Part shown: positions 1-47,511 of the stretch, piece by piece
How positions within the stretch are numbered: the first letter of the stretch is position 1
Layout: every line of letters begins with the position of its first letter
Source: Bartonella tribocorum
Lineage (GTDB): Bacteria; Pseudomonadota; Alphaproteobacteria; Rhizobiales; Rhizobiaceae
Direction: 5' to 3'
Assembly (NCBI RefSeq): GCF_002777915.1
Contig: NZ_NJGE01000001.1
Coordinates: forward strand, 46,629 to 110,628
DNA length: 64,000 nt
Translations under genes and position numbers: made by a program
The notes under the pieces: generated by a model
Told to the model about the DNA's origin: nothing
The model's database searches: none
The model's input: only the letters and a program-made list of their open reading frames with translations

Positions 1-325
1 AAAATTCACCCGCCTCTGCAATACGGCATCCAGAAAATGTCGATAATTCATCGAGAAAACGATTAACAACCGCTTTTCCGCCATGCAAATGAAATTCTGC
101 ACAATCTTCTCCCGTAAAACTATGAGGAGCAGGAAAAAAAACAGTTAAAGCAGAATCTAAAAAACTGCCATCACGAGCAATGAGATTTCCATAATGCATA
201 AAGCGTGCTTTAGGTAAACAACCACAAAGTGTTTTAACGATATGCACAACATGAGGACCAGAAAGCCGAATGACTGCAACCCCTGAAGGTAACAATCCAC
301 TCGAAACAGCAAAGATTGTATCCAC
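1..325 (-). CDS. mnmE: tRNA modification GTPase MnmE, N-terminal part (cut by window edge)
   Basis: Reading leftward from a GTG at 325-323, the translation opens VDTIFAVSSGLLPSGVAVIR and continues through SFTGEDCAEFHLHGGKAV. These are the conserved start and formyl-tetrahydrofolate-binding part of MnmE (TrmE). With MnmG, this GTPase makes the 5-carboxymethylaminomethyl modification of wobble uridine in tRNA. Only about 108 residues are inside the window; the G domain lies beyond the left edge. It starts 31 bases after the stop of rho on the same strand, so the two are probably co-transcribed. In alphaproteobacteria mnmE commonly lies in the origin-proximal group with mnmG, rsmG and parAB, which fits an origin just to the right. 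The GTG start is the only in-frame start near the family's usual N-terminus. Confidence 0.93.
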   Translation of the reverse strand, partial: MDTIFAVSSGLLPSGVAVIRLSGPHVVHIVKTLCGCLPKARFMHYGNLIARDGSFLDSALTVFFPAPHSFTGEDCAEFHLHGGKAVVNRFLDELSTFSGCRIAEAGEF

Positions 326-356
326 AGGTTTTATCCTAATAAAAAATTGAATGACT

Positions 357-1622
357 CTAAGTATTCATTGAATCAAAAAATTCACTATTGTTTTTTGTTT
401 GCTTCAATTTATCAATCAAAAATTCAATTGCATCTGTTACATTCATAGGCGCTAAAATACGACGAAGAACAAAAATTTTGTGCAAATCTTGTCGCGCAAC
501 CAAAAGTTCTTCTTTACGCGTTCCTGACTTCAAAATGTCCATAGCAGGGAAAATACGCTTATCAGCAACTTTTCTATCAAGAACGATTTCCGAATTACCA
601 GTTCCTTTAAATTCTTCAAAAATAACCTCATCCATACGGCTTCCTGTATCAATCAAAGCCGTTGCAATAATGGTTAAAGATCCACCTTCTTCAATATTAC
701 GTGCGGCACCAAAAAAACGTTTTGGACGTTGCAAAGCGTTTGCATCCACACCACCTGTCAAAACTTTACCTGAAGAAGGAACAACCGTATTATATGCACG
801 TCCAAGACGTGTAATCGAATCCAGAAGAATAACAACATCACGTCCATACTCAACGAGACGTTTAGCTTTTTCAATAACCATTTCTGCCACTTGTACGTGA
901 CGTATTGCGGGTTCATCAAAAGTAGAAGAAACAACCTCTCCCTTCACTGAACGCTGCATATCCGTAACTTCTTCTGGTCGCTCATCAATCAAAAGAACAA
1001 TAAGATAACATTCAGGATGGTTAGTAGTAATAGAGTGAGCAATATTTTGTAGGAGAACTGTCTTTCCTGTCCGTGGTGGTGCGACAATTAATCCTCTTTG
1101 TCCTTTTCCTAATGGAGATATTAAATCGATCACGCGTGATGACATATCCTTCTCTGTAGGATCTTGTATTTCCATTTGGAAACGTTCATTTGAATAAAGA
1201 GGTGTAAGATTATCAAAATGAATTTTGTAGCGAATCTTTTCAGGCTTTTCAAAATTAATCGTATTAATTTTAAGAAGAGCAAAATAACGTTCCCCATCTT
1301 TTGGGCTCCGTATAGGACCTTCAATGGTATCGCCTGTTTTTAAAGAAAATGATTGAATTTGCGAAGGTGAAAGATAGATATCATCAGGTCCAGGAAGATA
1401 GTTAGCATCAGCAGATCGCAAAAACCCGAATCCGTCTTGTAAAACTTCAACAACGCCTTCTCCTATAATCTCTACATCTTGTAGAGCAAGTTTCTTCAAA
1501 ATCGCAAACATTAATTCTTGTTTGCGCATAAGGGAAGCATTTTCAACTTCTAATGTTTCAGCAAAAGAAACAAGTTCAACGGGATTTTTGCTTTTAAGTT
1601 CTTGTAGTTTCATTTTTTGCAT
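357..1622 (-). CDS. rho: Transcription termination factor Rho
   Basis: 421 residues, the usual length for Rho. This hexameric RNA-dependent ATPase loads on C-rich nascent RNA and ends transcription. The N-terminal helical domain is followed by the cold-shock-like RNA-binding domain ([11 protein letters not shown] at about 59-70). The Walker A motif APPRTGKT is at about 181-188 and Walker B VVILLDS at about 263-269. Downstream, [11 protein letters not shown] carries the conserved Q/R-loop-proximal segment, and the C-terminus is intact. The start could be M1 or M4 (MKLQELKSK); M4 matches the common Rho N-terminus. The gene points away from the origin spacer on its right. In many Rhizobiales a hemJ-type gene and hemE lie between rho and the origin, but here rho abuts the spacer directly. 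Confidence 0.97.
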
Positions 1623-1991
1623 GAAATATGCTCTTTTAATTTAAGGAGAGAATTACTCTGAACAATTTTTGGAGATTTTATAGAACGAAATATTCTCAAG
1701 AAAAAAATATTTTACACTCAATTTTTTCAATCTGCAAGTACCATATTATATGAAATTTATTCGGTAATATTAAGAATATTATACAAAAAAATTAAAAGAA
1801 TATAAAATCTTAACAGTATTTTATTATTTCATAATAAAAATATGAAATAAACCTATAGCATTAATGGAATATTATTCAAAAGCTTTTTTCCAGAACTTTT
1901 TATTAATAAATTTATATTAAAGATAGGGATTCTTCTTATTTAAAGCTGTGTTTAGTGTGAATTATTATTTATACTTCATTTATCCTCAATT

Positions 1992-2000
1992 TTATCCACA
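1992..2000 (+). promoter_or_regulatory. Consensus DnaA box
   Basis: TTATCCACA is an exact match to the consensus DnaA-binding 9-mer. A one-mismatch copy lies just 3 bases to its left (1980-1988), and three weaker copies lie within about 110 bases. Clustering in a non-coding AT-rich spacer favours real initiator binding over chance. Confidence 0.75.
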
Positions 2001-2168
2001 AAAGAGAAGAAAAAAAGAATAAAAATAACACTGTCTTAAAGCTATTATCCCCTCTTTTTTCTCATAAGAGGTCTTTGATTATCACAGGGGATTCATTTGT
2101 GCATAATAATGGAAAATTTCTTCCAAGTTTTGGTTTCATAAAAATTACCGAGGATATATACACATCTC

Positions 2169-2183
2169 TTAACAAGGAGTTAA
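2169..2183 (+). promoter_or_regulatory. CtrA-type site TTAA-N7-TTAA overlapping the ppsR ribosome binding site
   Basis: TTAACAAGGAGTTAA has the exact full-length CtrA consensus (two TTAA half-sites 7 bases apart). The 7-base spacer contains the AAGGAG ribosome binding site of ppsR, whose GTG start is at 2191. CtrA is the alphaproteobacterial cell-cycle regulator that silences the Caulobacter origin. A site in the origin spacer and under the first gene suggests control of initiation, of ppsR, or of both. The spacing match is seen directly; binding is inferred. In AT-rich DNA such a match can arise by chance. Confidence 0.55.
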
Positions 2184-2190
2184 AATTTTT

Positions 2191-3015
2191 GTGACAAAAG
2201 AAAAAAAATCCTTTCATTTACACATGCTTTCTGATGCAACAGGGGAAACATTAATCTCTGTTGGAAGAGCTGTAGCATCGCAGTATACAATGAGTCAGGC
2301 AACAGAACATATCTATCCTATGATTCGTAATAAAATACAGTTACAAAAAGCTCTTGATGAAGTACAACAAGAGCCAGGGATTGTTCTTTACACGATGATT
2401 GATGAAGAACTTAAGCTTTTTCTTCAAAAAAGATGCGAAAAAATAAAAGTTCCCTGTATTGATATATTATATCCTGTTTTAAATGCTTTTCAGTCTTACC
2501 TTGGAATGCCAACTCACTTACGTGTGAGTGCACAACATGATCTTAATGCAGATTATTTTCGTCGTATTGAGGCATTGGATTTTACAATAGAGCATGATGA
2601 CGGACAGTCTTCCAGTAGTTTATACAAAGCCGATGTGATTCTTGTAGGAATTTCAAGGACTTCTAAAACGCCAACAAGTATCTATTTAGCAAATCGGGGA
2701 ATCAAAACAGCCAATGTCCCCCTTATTCCTAATATTGATTTGCCAGAATTCCTTTTAGAGGCAAAAAATTCTTTGATTATTGGTTTAATTGCTTCAGCTG
2801 AAAGAATCTCACATATTCGTCAAAATCGAGATTTGGGAGAAGGTTTTGCTCTTGAGAGTTATACGAATCGTATTAACATAGCTGAAGAATTAATCTATGC
2901 AAAACGCATTTGTGAACGTTTTGGTTGGCCTATTATTGATGTCACAAGGCGCTCTATTGAAGAAACTGCTGCTGCAATATTTGAACTTTTATCGCGATTT
3001 CGTGAAGGAAAATGA
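2191..3015 (+). CDS. ppsR: Pyruvate phosphate dikinase / PEP synthase regulatory protein (DUF299)
   Basis: 274 residues, typical of the DUF299 family. These are bifunctional serine/threonine kinases and phosphorylases. They switch pyruvate phosphate dikinase or PEP synthase off by ADP-dependent phosphorylation of an active-site threonine and on again by Pi-dependent dephosphorylation. The N-terminus HLHMLSDATGETL and the P-loop-like GISRTSKTPTSIYLA (about 150-165) are hallmarks. The GTG start at 2191 is supported by AAGGAG at 2174-2179. It is the first gene rightward of the probable origin and leads the run maf-aroE-coaE-dnaQ. Which dikinase it controls cannot be told from this window. Confidence 0.9.
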   Translation: MTKEKKSFHLHMLSDATGETLISVGRAVASQYTMSQATEHIYPMIRNKIQLQKALDEVQQEPGIVLYTMIDEELKLFLQKRCEKIKVPCIDILYPVLNAFQSYLGMPTHLRVSAQHDLNADYFRRIEALDFTIEHDDGQSSSSLYKADVILVGISRTSKTPTSIYLANRGIKTANVPLIPNIDLPEFLLEAKNSLIIGLIASAERISHIRQNRDLGEGFALESYTNRINIAEELIYAKRICERFGWPIIDVTRRSIEETAAAIFELLSRFREGK

Positions 3016-3027
3016 GAGAAAATTCTT

Positions 3028-3624
3028 ATGAACACAGAGACATTAATATTAGCATCTCTTAGTTCTTATCGTGCACAATTATTGAAAAAAGCAGGTTTAA
3101 ATTTTTTTATTGAAGGCGCTTCTTTTGATGAAAGAGAAATAGAAAAAAAAACAAAAGAAAAAACACCCAAAGAACTCAGCTGTTTTCTTGCGAGTGCAAA
3201 AGCAAAAAATGTTTCAGATCGTTTTCCTGATGCTTTCGTTATTGGTTGTGATCAAGTGCTTGATTTGGAAGGTAAAGTTTTTCATAAAGCAACAAATATT
3301 AAGCAAGCATATCAACGTTTATGTGAGTTATCAGGAAAAACGCATTCTCTTCATAGCGCGGTAGCTTTATTTAAAAATGGTCAAAAAATTTGGATTGAAG
3401 CTTTTAGTGCACATATGTCCGTACGTTTACTCTCGCCAGAATTTATTCAACATTATTTAGAACGCGTAGGAGAAGATGTTCTAAACAGTATAGGAGTCTA
3501 TCAAATTGAAGGGGAAGGAATCCATCTCTTTGAAAAAATTGATGGAGATTTTTTTACCATTATTGGTTTACCTTTGCTACCTCTACTTACAAAATTACGT
3601 CATTTAGGGGTTATTGATGGTTGA
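3028..3624 (+). CDS. maf: Maf-family nucleoside triphosphate pyrophosphatase
   Basis: 198 residues with the Maf/HAM1-fold features: N-terminal [19 protein letters not shown], the catalytic-region [12 protein letters not shown] at about 71-82, then HSAVALF. Maf proteins hydrolyse non-canonical or modified nucleotides to monophosphates and PPi. The GCDQV block and the C-terminal IGLPLLPLL resemble the YceF (7-methyl-GTP) subgroup more than the dTTP/UTP subgroup, but substrate assignment from sequence is uncertain. It starts 12 bases after ppsR and its 3' end overlaps aroE by 8 bases, so it is part of a tightly packed operon. Confidence 0.9.
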
Positions 3625-4489
3625 TTTAACAATAGAAAAGACAAAATACCCTCGCGCTTTTGTTGTTGGTTTTCCTATTCATCATTCAAAATCGCCAAGA
3701 ATTCATAATTTTTGGCTTAAACAATATGGTTTACAAGGGGAATATCTTGCACAGGAAGTAACTTCTGAAGAATTCAGTCATTTTATTACTTCTTTACAAA
3801 AAAGGGGTTTTTGTGGAGGAAATGTTACTTTACCTTATAAACAAGAAGCCTTTCGTTTAGCAGATTATAAAGATGAGACAGCAACAATGATTGGTGCTGC
3901 TAATACACTTTGGTATGAAGGAGATAAACTTTGTGCCACAAATAGTGATGCCTATGGTTTTAGCGCTAATCTTGATGATTTTGCATCTGATTGGGGAAGG
4001 GAAACAGCTCTTGTTTTTGGGGCAGGTGGTGCTGCACGCGCTATCCTATATGCTTTAAAAAAACGCGGATTTGAGCAGATTTATTTAGTTAACCGTACAA
4101 AACAACGTGCTGATAATTTAGCTCAGCATTTTGGAAAAACCATTAAAGTCTACGATTGGCATAAAATCCATGAAATACTTTATCAAGCTGATTTGATTGT
4201 TAATACAACTTCCATTGGTATAAAAAATTCAAAAGAAAAGAGTGATTCTTTTTTTTGTGATTTTCATAAAGCAAAAAAAACGGCATTAGTAACAGATATT
4301 GTTTATACACCCTTGATAACCCCTTTTTTACAACAGGCAAAAGCTTGTGGTCTAAGGATTGTTGATGGATTTGGAATGCTTCTACATCAGGCTGTTATAG
4401 GTTTTGAACAGTGGTTTGGAATAAGACCACAGGTAACAAAAGCGTTACGGACAGCTATTTTAGAGGATATGAGTGAAGAAAGAGAATGA
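3617..4489 (+). CDS. aroE: Shikimate dehydrogenase (NADP+)
   Basis: 290 residues. It catalyses NADPH-dependent reduction of 3-dehydroshikimate to shikimate in aromatic amino acid and folate-precursor synthesis. Substrate-binding HSKSPRIHN, catalytic lysine in [17 protein letters not shown] and TNSDAYGF are present. So are the Rossmann loop [10 protein letters not shown], the NADP-phosphate-binding NRTKQRA, and [10 protein letters not shown] near the C-terminus. The ATG at 3617 is preferred over a TTG three bases upstream because AGGGG at 3606-3610 is then correctly spaced. It overlaps the end of maf by 8 bases and the start of coaE by 4 bases (ATGA), indicating translational coupling. Confidence 0.95.
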
Positions 4490-5073
4490 AGATCATAGGA
4501 TTGACGGGATCAATTGCTATGGGAAAATCAACGGTTGCTGATTTTTTCAAGAAAGCGGGTATTTCTGTTTTTAGTGCTGATGAGGCAGTACAACAGCTTT
4601 ATAAAAGTGAGCCAGCTTTATCACGCATAGAGCGTATTTTTCCTGGTGTTGTCGAAAACGGTGAAGTTAATCGTTTAAAACTTTTTGAAATTTTGATTGA
4701 TGATAAGGAAAAATTACAAACATTAGAAAAAATAATTCACCCTCTAGTGCAAGAAAAAGAAAAAGAATTTATTAATACAGCGCGCCATCAGGGGAAAAAG
4801 TTAGTTATTCTTGATATTCCACTTCTATTTGAAAAAAATGGTGAAAGTCGTGTAGATAGCGTTATTGTTGTTTCTGCTCCACCAGAAATACAAAAGGAAC
4901 GTGTAATGATTCGTCAAGGTATGAATGAGAAAAAATTTGCCTTTATCAATGCTCAACAAATGTCGGATGAAAAAAAACGAGAACGTGCTGATTTTATTAT
5001 TGATACAGGGAAAGATTTAGAAAATACACGTCAACAGGTTTTTGATGTAATAAGAAAATTGCTAAAGAATTGA
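4486..5073 (+). CDS. coaE: Dephospho-CoA kinase
   Basis: 195 residues. It performs the last step of coenzyme A synthesis, phosphorylating the 3'-hydroxyl of dephospho-CoA. The P-loop GSIAMGKS is at residues 8-15, [10 protein letters not shown] follows at the substrate-binding region, and LDIPLLFE is the conserved lid-proximal motif. The start overlaps the aroE stop in an ATGA arrangement. The pantothenate-branch enzyme CoaBC is encoded elsewhere in this window (46090-47511), so two late CoA-pathway steps are covered here. Confidence 0.95.
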
Positions 5074-5077
5074 AGTT

Positions 5078-5785
5078 ATGCGGGAAATTATTTTTGATAC
5101 AGAAACAACAGGTTTAGATAAAGAGAAAGACCGCATAATCGAAATTGGTTGTGTCGAAATGGTTGATCGTTATCTTACGGGACGCCAGTTTCACGTTTAT
5201 TTAAATCCTGAAGATGTTATTATTCCTGATGAAGTTGTAGCAATTCACGGATTAACCAATGAGCGCCTAAAAAACGAGAAAAGTTTTAGTGATATTGTTG
5301 ATGAATTTTTAGAATTTATCAATGGTGCGACCATGATTGCGCATAATGCGAGTTTTGATATAGGTTTTATTAATGCAGAATTAAAACGCGTCAATAAGCC
5401 ACTTATCAGTGTTGATAATATTCTTGATACATTGGCTATGGCACGGCGTAAATTTCCTATGGGCCCAAATTCTCTTGATATTTTATGTAAACGTTTTGGA
5501 ATTGATAACAGTCATCGTGTTCTTCATGGTGCTCTCCTTGATGCAGAGATTTTAGCCGATGTTTATATTGAACTGATTGGTGGAAAGCAGGGCGTCTTGG
5601 GGTTTGATAGCAAAAGGAATGTTGATGAACATACAAAAAATGATCAAGATACATCTTATACAGCTAAATCTCGTCCACAGGCTTTACCTTCAAGATTGAG
5701 CATACAGGAAAAAAAGTTACACGCTGATTTTATTAATGAAATGGGTGAAAAAGCTCTGTGGAATAACTTCAAAATTCATGAATAA
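5078..5785 (+). CDS. dnaQ: DNA polymerase III epsilon subunit (3'-5' proofreading exonuclease)
   Basis: 235 residues. It is the DEDDh exonuclease that proofreads for the replicative polymerase. Exo I DTETTG is at residues 7-12, Exo II HNASFDIGF at about 89-97, and Exo III HGALLDAEILADVY at about 150-163 with the catalytic His and Asp. The C-terminal tail (about 185-235) is the less conserved part that contacts the alpha subunit. It starts 4 bases after coaE and closes the five-gene run from the probable origin. secB, the next gene in many relatives, is absent; a hairpin/short-ORF locus and polA follow instead. Confidence 0.95.
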   Translation: MREIIFDTETTGLDKEKDRIIEIGCVEMVDRYLTGRQFHVYLNPEDVIIPDEVVAIHGLTNERLKNEKSFSDIVDEFLEFINGATMIAHNASFDIGFINAELKRVNKPLISVDNILDTLAMARRKFPMGPNSLDILCKRFGIDNSHRVLHGALLDAEILADVYIELIGGKQGVLGFDSKRNVDEHTKNDQDTSYTAKSRPQALPSRLSIQEKKLHADFINEMGEKALWNNFKIHE

Positions 5786-5848
5786 CATTCTTATCGTTTC
5801 TCTAAAAAATGACTTAAGATTAAAAATAGAGAATATAAGAGAATACAG

Positions 5849-44064: not shown

Positions 44065-44260
44065 AGGGGGCATGAGAGTATTTTATACCTTTTTAAAAGT
44101 GCTTTTATCCACACGACTGCCCTCTATTTATGACATCTCAACAAACGATTTTAATTGATTCAATATGAATGGGTGAAAATAAGAAAGCTTTATAATATTG
44201 AGTTCTTTACGCGTGCCATAAAACGGTAAATTATCATTATAAATCAATATATTGATTTAA
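44065..44260 (+). repeat. Dispersed repeat family B, copy 1
   Basis: From ATTGATTCAATATGA (44154 on) to TAAATTATCATTATAAATCA (44227 on), the order of motifs matches the copy at 45820-46005 and, reversed, the copy at 63312-63510. Similarity is patchy, so the ends are approximate. Confidence 0.5.
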
Positions 44261-46089: not shown

Positions 46090-47511
46090 TTATTTGAAAT
46101 GGTGTATTTTTTCTTTATGGGGTTTAGGTGTTTGGGGGGTAAAGAATGATACGATCATGTTTGCTAATTTTTGCGCTACGTGTTGTTTACTCATAGGGGG
46201 CCATGGTTCAACTTTTTCTTTATTTACGAGATAAACTTGATTTGTATCAGCACCCATGACATTTGTGCCATCAGAGTGAAGAGAAACGTCATTAGCAAGA
46301 ATGAAATCAGCACCTTTTTCGACACATTTTTTTTGCGCATTAGCAATGATATCACATGTTTCAGCAGCAAAACCAATGACCAATGAGGGGCGGTTTGGAG
46401 CGTGTCCAATCGTTGCTAAAATGTCAGGATTTTCGACCATATGCAAGGATGGCGGTGTTTTATGAGTATTTTTTTTAATTTTGTGTAAAGATTGCGTTTG
46501 ACTACGCCAATCACAAACCGCTGCAACAAAAATGGCACCATCAGCAGGCAATGATTCTTGAACAATTTGTAACATCTGTTGTGCTGTTTCAACATGAATA
46601 GTTTTCACTTCTTGTGGATCTGCAAGATTAACAGGTCCACAAATCAGTGTTACTTTTGCTCCCAAATGCGCAAGAGTGGTTGCAATGGCGTGACCTTGTT
46701 TACCTGAAGACCGATTAGCAAGATAACGCACTGGATCAATTGGTTCATGGGTAGGGCCAGAGGTAACGATGAAATGGCGGCCAGAGAGAGGTTTTTTACG
46801 CACATCCAAAAGAGCCTCTATGGCAGCAACAATGGTTAAGGGTTCACTCATGCGCCCATAGCCTGTTTCGTCACGTTCAGCCATATTTCCGATTTCTGGT
46901 CCGATAATATGAACGCCATCTGCGCGCAATTGTGCAACATTGCGAACAGTGGCTGGATGCGCCCACATGGCTGGATTCATAGCAGGGGCAATTAAGAGTG
47001 GACAGCGTGCTGCTAAAAGGACGCAATCGGCTAGATCATCTCCTATGCCATGGGCTATTTTTGCTATGCGATTGGCTGTAGCAGGGGCTAAAATAATGAG
47101 GTCAGCATCCCGTGCTAGTCGGATATGTCCGATATCGTGTTCTTCTTCGCGTGAAAATAAATCGGTATATACAGTACGACCGTTGAGAGCTTCAGCAGTT
47201 AAAGGCGTAATAAATTTTTGTGCTGCTTTTGTCATAATAATGTTTAAGTGTGCTCCACGCTCTTTTAAACGACGAATGAGATCAAGCGCTTTATAGGCCG
47301 CAATACTTCCACCAATAATAAGAAGGAGTGATTTTGATTGCAATGATTGCACTTCAATGGCACTTGCATGAGAGGGGAATGTAGTGAAAGTGGTGGGATT
47401 ACTTAAAAGACGGCGCGCTTCTTCCTCCATAGAAATCCCATTTTGCGCAGCGCGTACACGCAAAGCTTCTTTAATTTCAGGAGACAAGTTACGAATAGTA
47501 ATACTGGCCAT
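46090..47511 (-). CDS. coaBC: CoaBC (phosphopantothenoylcysteine synthetase/decarboxylase) with N-terminal RHH domain
   Basis: 473 residues against about 406 in E. coli. Residues 1-38 (MASITIRNLSPEIKEALRVR onward to MEEEARRLLS) look like a FitA-type ribbon-helix-helix antitoxin domain, joined by a linker to CoaC. CoaC has LLLIIGGSIAAYKALDLIR, catalytic His129 in GHIRLA, PATAN, and PAMNPAMW. CoaB follows with SGPTHEPIDPVRYLANRSSG and FILANDVS. It condenses 4'-phosphopantothenate with cysteine and decarboxylates the product in CoA synthesis. The upstream TTGGAGG sits correctly before the M1 codon, so the extension is translated. Confidence 0.92.
   Translation of the reverse strand: MASITIRNLSPEIKEALRVRAAQNGISMEEEARRLLSNPTTFTTFPSHASAIEVQSLQSKSLLLIIGGSIAAYKALDLIRRLKERGAHLNIIMTKAAQKFITPLTAEALNGRTVYTDLFSREEEHDIGHIRLARDADLIILAPATANRIAKIAHGIGDDLADCVLLAARCPLLIAPAMNPAMWAHPATVRNVAQLRADGVHIIGPEIGNMAERDETGYGRMSEPLTIVAAIEALLDVRKKPLSGRHFIVTSGPTHEPIDPVRYLANRSSGKQGHAIATTLAHLGAKVTLICGPVNLADPQEVKTIHVETAQQMLQIVQESLPADGAIFVAAVCDWRSQTQSLHKIKKNTHKTPPSLHMVENPDILATIGHAPNRPSLVIGFAAETCDIIANAQKKCVEKGADFILANDVSLHSDGTNVMGADTNQVYLVNKEKVEPWPPMSKQHVAQKLANMIVSFFTPQTPKPHKEKIHHFK

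Follow-up and report, generated by a model that had tools for sequence, protein, structure and literature searches.

A probable Rhizobiales-type chromosomal origin in Bartonella tribocorum, shortened and without its hemJ-hemE flank

The spacer between rho and ppsR in Bartonella tribocorum is very probably the chromosomal oriC, and of the Rhizobiales type. We hold with high confidence that this spacer is homologous to the origins of that type, and that hemJ-hemE, about 90 bp of origin DNA and a surplus of GANTC sites were lost on the stem of those Bartonella that have no hemE (hemE-less, as opposed to hemE-bearing). Judged by position and homology, both of which rest on sequence, it is an ordinary alphaproteobacterial oriC; DnaA binding, melting and loading are extrapolated from known DnaA-oriC biology. 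The stretch of DNA analysed (the window, 64,000 nt) is nt 46629–110628 of the forward strand of contig NZ_NJGE01000001.1 (C1) in assembly GCF_002777915.1, a genome of 2.19 Mb in 98 contigs. Its PpsR shares 95–96% identity with PpsR from several named Bartonella, including B. elizabethae and B. grahamii. The features discussed are as follows, in window positions, with offsets counted from ppsR.

1–340, minus strand: 5' end of mnmE, left flank (tblastn, mnmE frame of the hemE-bearing genome G064 against C1)
357–1622, minus strand: rho (Pfam Rho domains), adjoining the probable oriC after the loss of hemJ-hemE
1623–2190, no strand: probable oriC spacer between rho and ppsR, GC 0.23
1743–1925, no strand: AT-rich tract of low conservation, candidate unwinding region (base composition; alignment of 54 spacers)
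1927–1979, plus strand: conserved left element, a fixed step before the left DnaA box (alignment of 18 chosen origins), with a version in other genera
1956–1964, minus strand: weak DnaA box TAATTCACA, at -235; TAATCCACA at the same offset in several relatives
1980–1988, plus strand: left DnaA box TTATCCTCA, one mismatch, at -211
1992–2000, plus strand: exact DnaA box TTATCCACA, at -199
2045–2053, plus strand: weak DnaA box TTATCCCCT, at -146; TTATCCCCA in several relatives
2098–2106, minus strand: right DnaA box TTATGCACA, one mismatch, at -93, conserved across genera
2169–2183, no strand: TTAA-N7-TTAA (CtrA-like) site, the one match in the spacer, overlapping the likely ppsR Shine-Dalgarno
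2191–3015, plus strand: ppsR (Kinase-PPPase, PF03618), right flank
3028–5785, plus strand: maf, aroE, coaE and a dnaQ-type exonuclease (RNase_T), right flank (Pfam)

An earlier note on this DNA had read ppsR-maf-aroE-coaE-dnaQ to the right of the spacer, and Pfam searches confirmed this order, which stands on one side of oriC in Alphaproteobacteria (Rhizobiales/Caulobacter type); polA is also among the flanking genes. Matches to rho were found in all 71 Bartonella genomes and to ppsR in 70, the exception being G064. The AT-rich tract that had been claimed is also present: the most AT-rich 100 bases of the spacer (89% AT) start at nt 1744, and the tract around them (nt 1743–1925) is a putative unwinding region. 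A plasmid database searched with nt 1400–5800 gave no match. A second well-conserved block of the spacer (nt 1683–1745) adjoins rho, has CTGCAAG near its end, and is perhaps the rho promoter and leader.

The exact DnaA box and the two one-mismatch copies claimed earlier (nt 1980–1988 and 2098–2106, on opposite strands) were confirmed, but the number of two-mismatch copies had been put too low, at two, where six were counted. Among 500 dinucleotide shuffles of the spacer, a single exact box was reached in two, and neither the three boxes with at most one mismatch nor the nine with at most two were reached in any. The window as a whole is rich in near-boxes (35 with at most one mismatch, relative to a shuffle mean of 18.6) and has a second exact box at nt 44105, so that the number of boxes by itself does not distinguish the spacer. 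Such counts being weak evidence across the window, conservation of box position was relied on instead.

At the place of the right box, between -85 and -97 relative to ppsR, a box on the minus strand occurs in 53 of 55 hemE-less spacers, in all 13 hemE-bearing Bartonella origins and in 24 of 33 origins from other genera (G020 and G034, whose contigs end at the locus, were left out of the spacer reading). Around -200, a box with at most one mismatch is found in 46 of the 55 hemE-less spacers, and none is listed there in the 13 hemE-bearing genomes. It is the box at nt 1980, not the exact box at nt 1992, that aligns with the left box of hemE-bearing Bartonella (-297 to -306); a left box at the equivalent offset occurs in just one of the 33 other-genus origins (G096). 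The cluster is conserved in position, as expected of an alphaproteobacterial oriC. The assembly of one relative, G029, has two box clusters, due to a tandem duplication of about 897 bp (C1, nt 265050–266757; copies 99.8% identical) that includes the cluster and the ppsR start, and which could be a misassembly.

The spacer might instead be a mere divergent promoter region for rho and ppsR, whose boxes arose by chance in AT-rich DNA, the real origin lying elsewhere nearby. The abundance of near-boxes in the window would fit this, as would ten promoter-like matches in nt 1560–2260 (shuffle mean 5.2) and a skew minimum that falls inside rho (see below). Chance matches should not keep their order and distance over relatives as these boxes do, nor should the right box be common to other genera; three boxes with at most one mismatch within 568 bases were matched by none of the shuffles, and the sign of the GC skew changes at this locus in three genomes. 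We consider the promoter-region explanation very improbable.

The position of the GC-skew minimum had been named in the earlier note as a test that could tell against an origin here, and the result speaks for one. In C1 (nt 1–170000) the cumulative minimum falls at window nt 1013, within rho and about 610 bp from the spacer. Two relatives assembled as single contigs, G023 and the hemE-bearing G014, were each sampled at twenty 15-kb segments. In G023 the skew is positive in 9 of 10 samples to the right of the locus (the other is -0.037) and negative in 10 of 10 to the left. In G014 all 10 samples between 0 and 1.365 Mb have positive skew; of the 10 taken beyond that point, 8 are negative and two have values of +0.007 and +0.078. 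The skew thus switches sign at the locus in all three genomes, more weakly in G014. In six contigs the ppsR match starts within the first 7 bases. Left of the spacer lie parB-parA-gidB-gidA-mnmE, and two perfect GTTTCACGTGAAAC palindromes, which we take to be parS-like, are found 1.1 and 3.0 kb past the left edge of the window; no further copy occurs in 170 kb of C1. The samples of G023 and G014 have such palindromes (one and two, respectively) only within 7 kb of the origin-side contig end. The nearness of parAB and parS-like sites is as in alphaproteobacterial oriC regions.

Skew of this kind supports the spacer as a main origin, and is compatible with a further start elsewhere. Passages of the B. 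grahamii genome paper (PMC2697382) describe a phage-particle DNA signal that is highest at a phage cluster and declines on either side as far as ori, and propose an extra, phage-derived origin. A second start at the phage-derived run-off site of Bartonella, by which the spacer would not be the sole origin, would add a start and remove none; the same passages name an ori, and name it apart from the run-off site. We judge such a second start to be unlikely in B. tribocorum.

The spacer being taken as oriC, its left flank is the unusual part. In Caulobacter, the DnaA boxes of Cori lie in the spacer between hemE and a ppsR-type gene block. The B. tribocorum locus resembles it in having DnaA boxes in a spacer beside such a block, but differs in the absence of hemE and in having a single TTAA-N7-TTAA match, at the ppsR end. 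No match to hemE (PF01208) was found in the genome of the window. The gene is present in 14 of 71 Bartonella genomes, and hemJ in an identical set; the remaining 57 gave no match to either. The 14 would be the bee-gut group together with B. tamiae, which are called one clade in a passage of PMC10949449. In the family, hemE is found in 157 of 161 genomes, and the four without it are that of the window, one other Bartonella, one genome that is 88% complete, and G142. The last belongs to another genus (1.9 Mb, one contig) and has a hemB match, no hemE match, and rho-like matches that are distant and partial. Part of PMC5156944 reports an ant symbiont whose origin has T1SS genes next to it, and G142 may be the same or a similar organism.

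Gene order shows where the loss took place. Wherever a hemE-bearing Bartonella has ppsR (13 genomes), the interval from rho to the spacer is occupied by hemJ and hemE, and rho and ppsR are 2120–2133 bp apart; the distance is 466–740 bp in 54 hemE-less genomes, that of the window included (G031, with an N gap, was left out of the length statistics). In the family, 44 of the 157 genomes with hemE were read (the 30 highest-scoring hemE loci and 20 chosen by hand, 6 being common to both sets). The order was rho-hemJ-hemE-ppsR in 31, rho-hemJ-hemE-maf in 8, and hemJ-hemE-ppsR in 2; one had rho-hemJ-hemE with no right-hand gene found, and two had hemE alone. With rho to the left of hemJ-hemE in 40 of the 44, the usual family order is rho-hemJ-hemE-oriC-ppsR. 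The usual companion of the origin on its other side, hemE, which is outside the initiation mechanism, is therefore absent here through loss, and on this point the earlier note is upheld, both by gene order (13 of 13 Bartonella, 40 of 44 in the family) and by the 57 genomes lacking a match. Its statement that rho replaces hemE is rejected by the same gene order: rho already stood to the left of hemJ-hemE in relatives, and it was hemJ-hemE that vanished from between rho and oriC.

That rho directly abuts the spacer in hemE-less genomes could also be explained by a rearrangement that carried rho to the origin, with hemE lost elsewhere. This is scarcely credible, as only hemJ and hemE separate rho from the spacer in hemE-bearing Bartonella, rho has the same place in most of the family genomes read, and rho has mnmE on its left in B. 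tribocorum as in G064. Loss in place of hemJ-hemE is preferred. Decayed copies of hemE, hemJ, rho, ppsR, maf and mnmE were sought in the 55 hemE-less spacers (tblastn, E 0.1) and none was found; a repeated search for hemE and hemJ remnants again found none, while the hemE-bearing control was detected.

A tree was built from Rho and PpsR, both encoded beside the origin, by a quick search over 69 of the 71 Bartonella and 14 other-genus rows, in several of which one protein is absent or truncated. The 55 hemE-less rows form one clade (SH-aLRT 100), so a single change suffices; next to this clade the tree also places G146, an other-genus row whose branch is very long. Most simply, hemJ and hemE were lost once, between rho and oriC, on the hemE-less stem.

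Two hemE-bearing genomes deserve separate mention. In G064, the fourteenth, hemJ-hemE lie to the left of the equivalent place, about 1 kb before maf, with no ppsR match, although a short ppsR-like start seems, by eye, to persist. This is a mirror case (C1, nt 321486–322525), with hemE kept, ppsR not found, and seven DnaA boxes of at most one mismatch in the interval from hemE to maf. In G046 the matches to hemE (L014 and L015), rho and ferrochelatase are each split, more likely by sequencing errors than by decay.

Bartonella are described as heme auxotrophs in a passage of PMC3483173, and the earlier note saw the loss of hemE as in line with this. The loss itself stands, but its place in the sequence of events is probably late. 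Matches to hemB (PF00490) were absent from all 71 Bartonella, including the 14 with hemC, hemE, hemJ and hemH, but present in each of the 8 relatives tested from other genera. The gene hemC is confined to the same 14 genomes as hemE, as is ferrochelatase (hemH) above the cut-off, with two faint matches below it. Conversion of ALA to porphobilinogen thus seems to be missing in the hemE-bearing Bartonella. Since hemB is missing even in them, loss of hemE was probably not the first step, and the disappearance of hemJ-hemE from the origin flank probably came late on the way to heme dependence. Only one of the 71 genomes, the hemE-less G028, has an ALAS (TIGR01821) match above the cut-off of 338.55 (C2, nt 18623–19816). 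As a heme gene it was rejected, its neighbours being an oxidoreductase-like and an acetyltransferase-like ORF (named by eye), and its surroundings are perhaps a small biosynthetic island. Nine further genomes, including the hemE-bearing G061 (278 bits), have weaker matches, and ALAS-like enzymes are possible in these.

The interior of the origin also differs between the two Bartonella groups. The alignment of 18 chosen origins revealed, besides the left element, a right one that surrounds the -93 box. Sought with spellings adapted to each group, the left element was recovered in 47 of 55 hemE-less, 13 of 13 hemE-bearing and 18 of 33 other-genus origins. Its start lies between -338 and -347 in all 13 hemE-bearing Bartonella. 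Among the 18 other-genus origins with the element, 17 have it starting between -335 and -369 and one at -452; in the 47 hemE-less spacers it starts between -233 and -255. Likewise, the left and right boxes are 202–211 bp apart in 13 of 13 hemE-bearing Bartonella and 114–118 bp in 42 of 49 hemE-less ones; six of the 55 hemE-less rows had no assigned left box, and of the seven outside this range six took the box near -199 and one is a chance match. Because the left-element offsets of other genera match those of hemE-bearing Bartonella, the change is read as a loss of about 90 bp in the hemE-less clade, from the stretch separating the left element from the right one. The earlier statement that the origin stayed put accordingly holds for its position, and fails in that the origin became shorter.

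The counts of GANTC, the CcrM site, follow the same division. There are 155 in the 33 other-genus origins with ppsR (shuffle mean 69), 34 in 8 other-genus origins with maf (17 in shuffles) and 66 in the 13 hemE-bearing Bartonella origins (15 in shuffles), relative to only 35 in the 55 hemE-less spacers (shuffle mean 67), two of them in the B. tribocorum spacer; related rows within these sums are not independent. The window as a whole is also below expectation (132, relative to 205 in shuffles), as are the samples of G014 and G023. The surplus, typical of sister origins though not essential, is absent here. The enzyme need not have disappeared with the surplus, as CcrM orthologues are listed for B. 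bacilliformis and B. tamiae in part of PMC13092597.

The TTAA-N7-TTAA site is differently placed in the two groups. It lies at -17 to -26 in 52 of 55 hemE-less spacers and in none of the 13 hemE-bearing ones, while all 13 of the latter have it 22 bases ahead of the left box; a copy in the left-element range occurs in 1 of 55 hemE-less spacers. The pattern occurs 9 times in 170 kb of C1. In other genera a site of this kind occurs in just 7 of 41 origins, so the left one may be new in the hemE-bearing group. Overlap with the likely ppsR Shine-Dalgarno alone could conserve part of the right site. Both GANTC and the CtrA-like sites may act in control of the origin. A tentative and somewhat doubtful extension is that the origin was rewired on the stem of the hemE-less Bartonella, which are largely blood-borne, through the loss of about 90 bp and of the GANTC surplus and a move of the CtrA-like site from the left box to the ppsR edge, and that initiation is coupled differently to the CtrA/CcrM cell cycle in gut-symbiont and blood-borne Bartonella.

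In overall layout, the locus agrees with the Rhizobiales-type oriC (hemE-oriC-ppsR) in ppsR-maf on the right and mnmE-rho on the left, and also in its right DnaA box and in having a version of the left element, but hemJ-hemE are missing, the left element is about 90 bp nearer to ppsR, and the GANTC surplus is gone. It shares with the origins of the 14 hemE-bearing Bartonella the locus, its flanks and the aligned left and right boxes; they differ in retaining hemJ-hemE, the wide box spacing and the GANTC surplus, and in having TTAA-N7-TTAA beside the left box. In the proposed mechanism, DnaA would bind the ordered boxes at nt 1980, 1992, 2045 and 2098 and melt the adjoining AT-rich DNA, and two forks would depart, one toward rho and the other toward ppsR. 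On the hemE-less stem hemJ and hemE would have been lost, leaving rho to adjoin the origin, and the same stem would have seen the origin lose both its GANTC surplus and about 90 bp from between the left element and the right, in one event or several. Neither hemE loss beside the Bartonella origin nor shortening of the origin was found described in open-licence literature, which proves little; 'hemE' and 'heme' are indistinguishable in such a search.

These results place the probable origin in a draft Bartonella genome, and indicate that, within one genus, both the flank and the inner layout of the origin changed on the branch on which heme genes were lost. The absence of hemB from hemE-bearing species suggests that heme dependence preceded the loss of hemE. 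With sister groups that do and do not carry the change, CtrA/CcrM control of initiation would be directly comparable between them.
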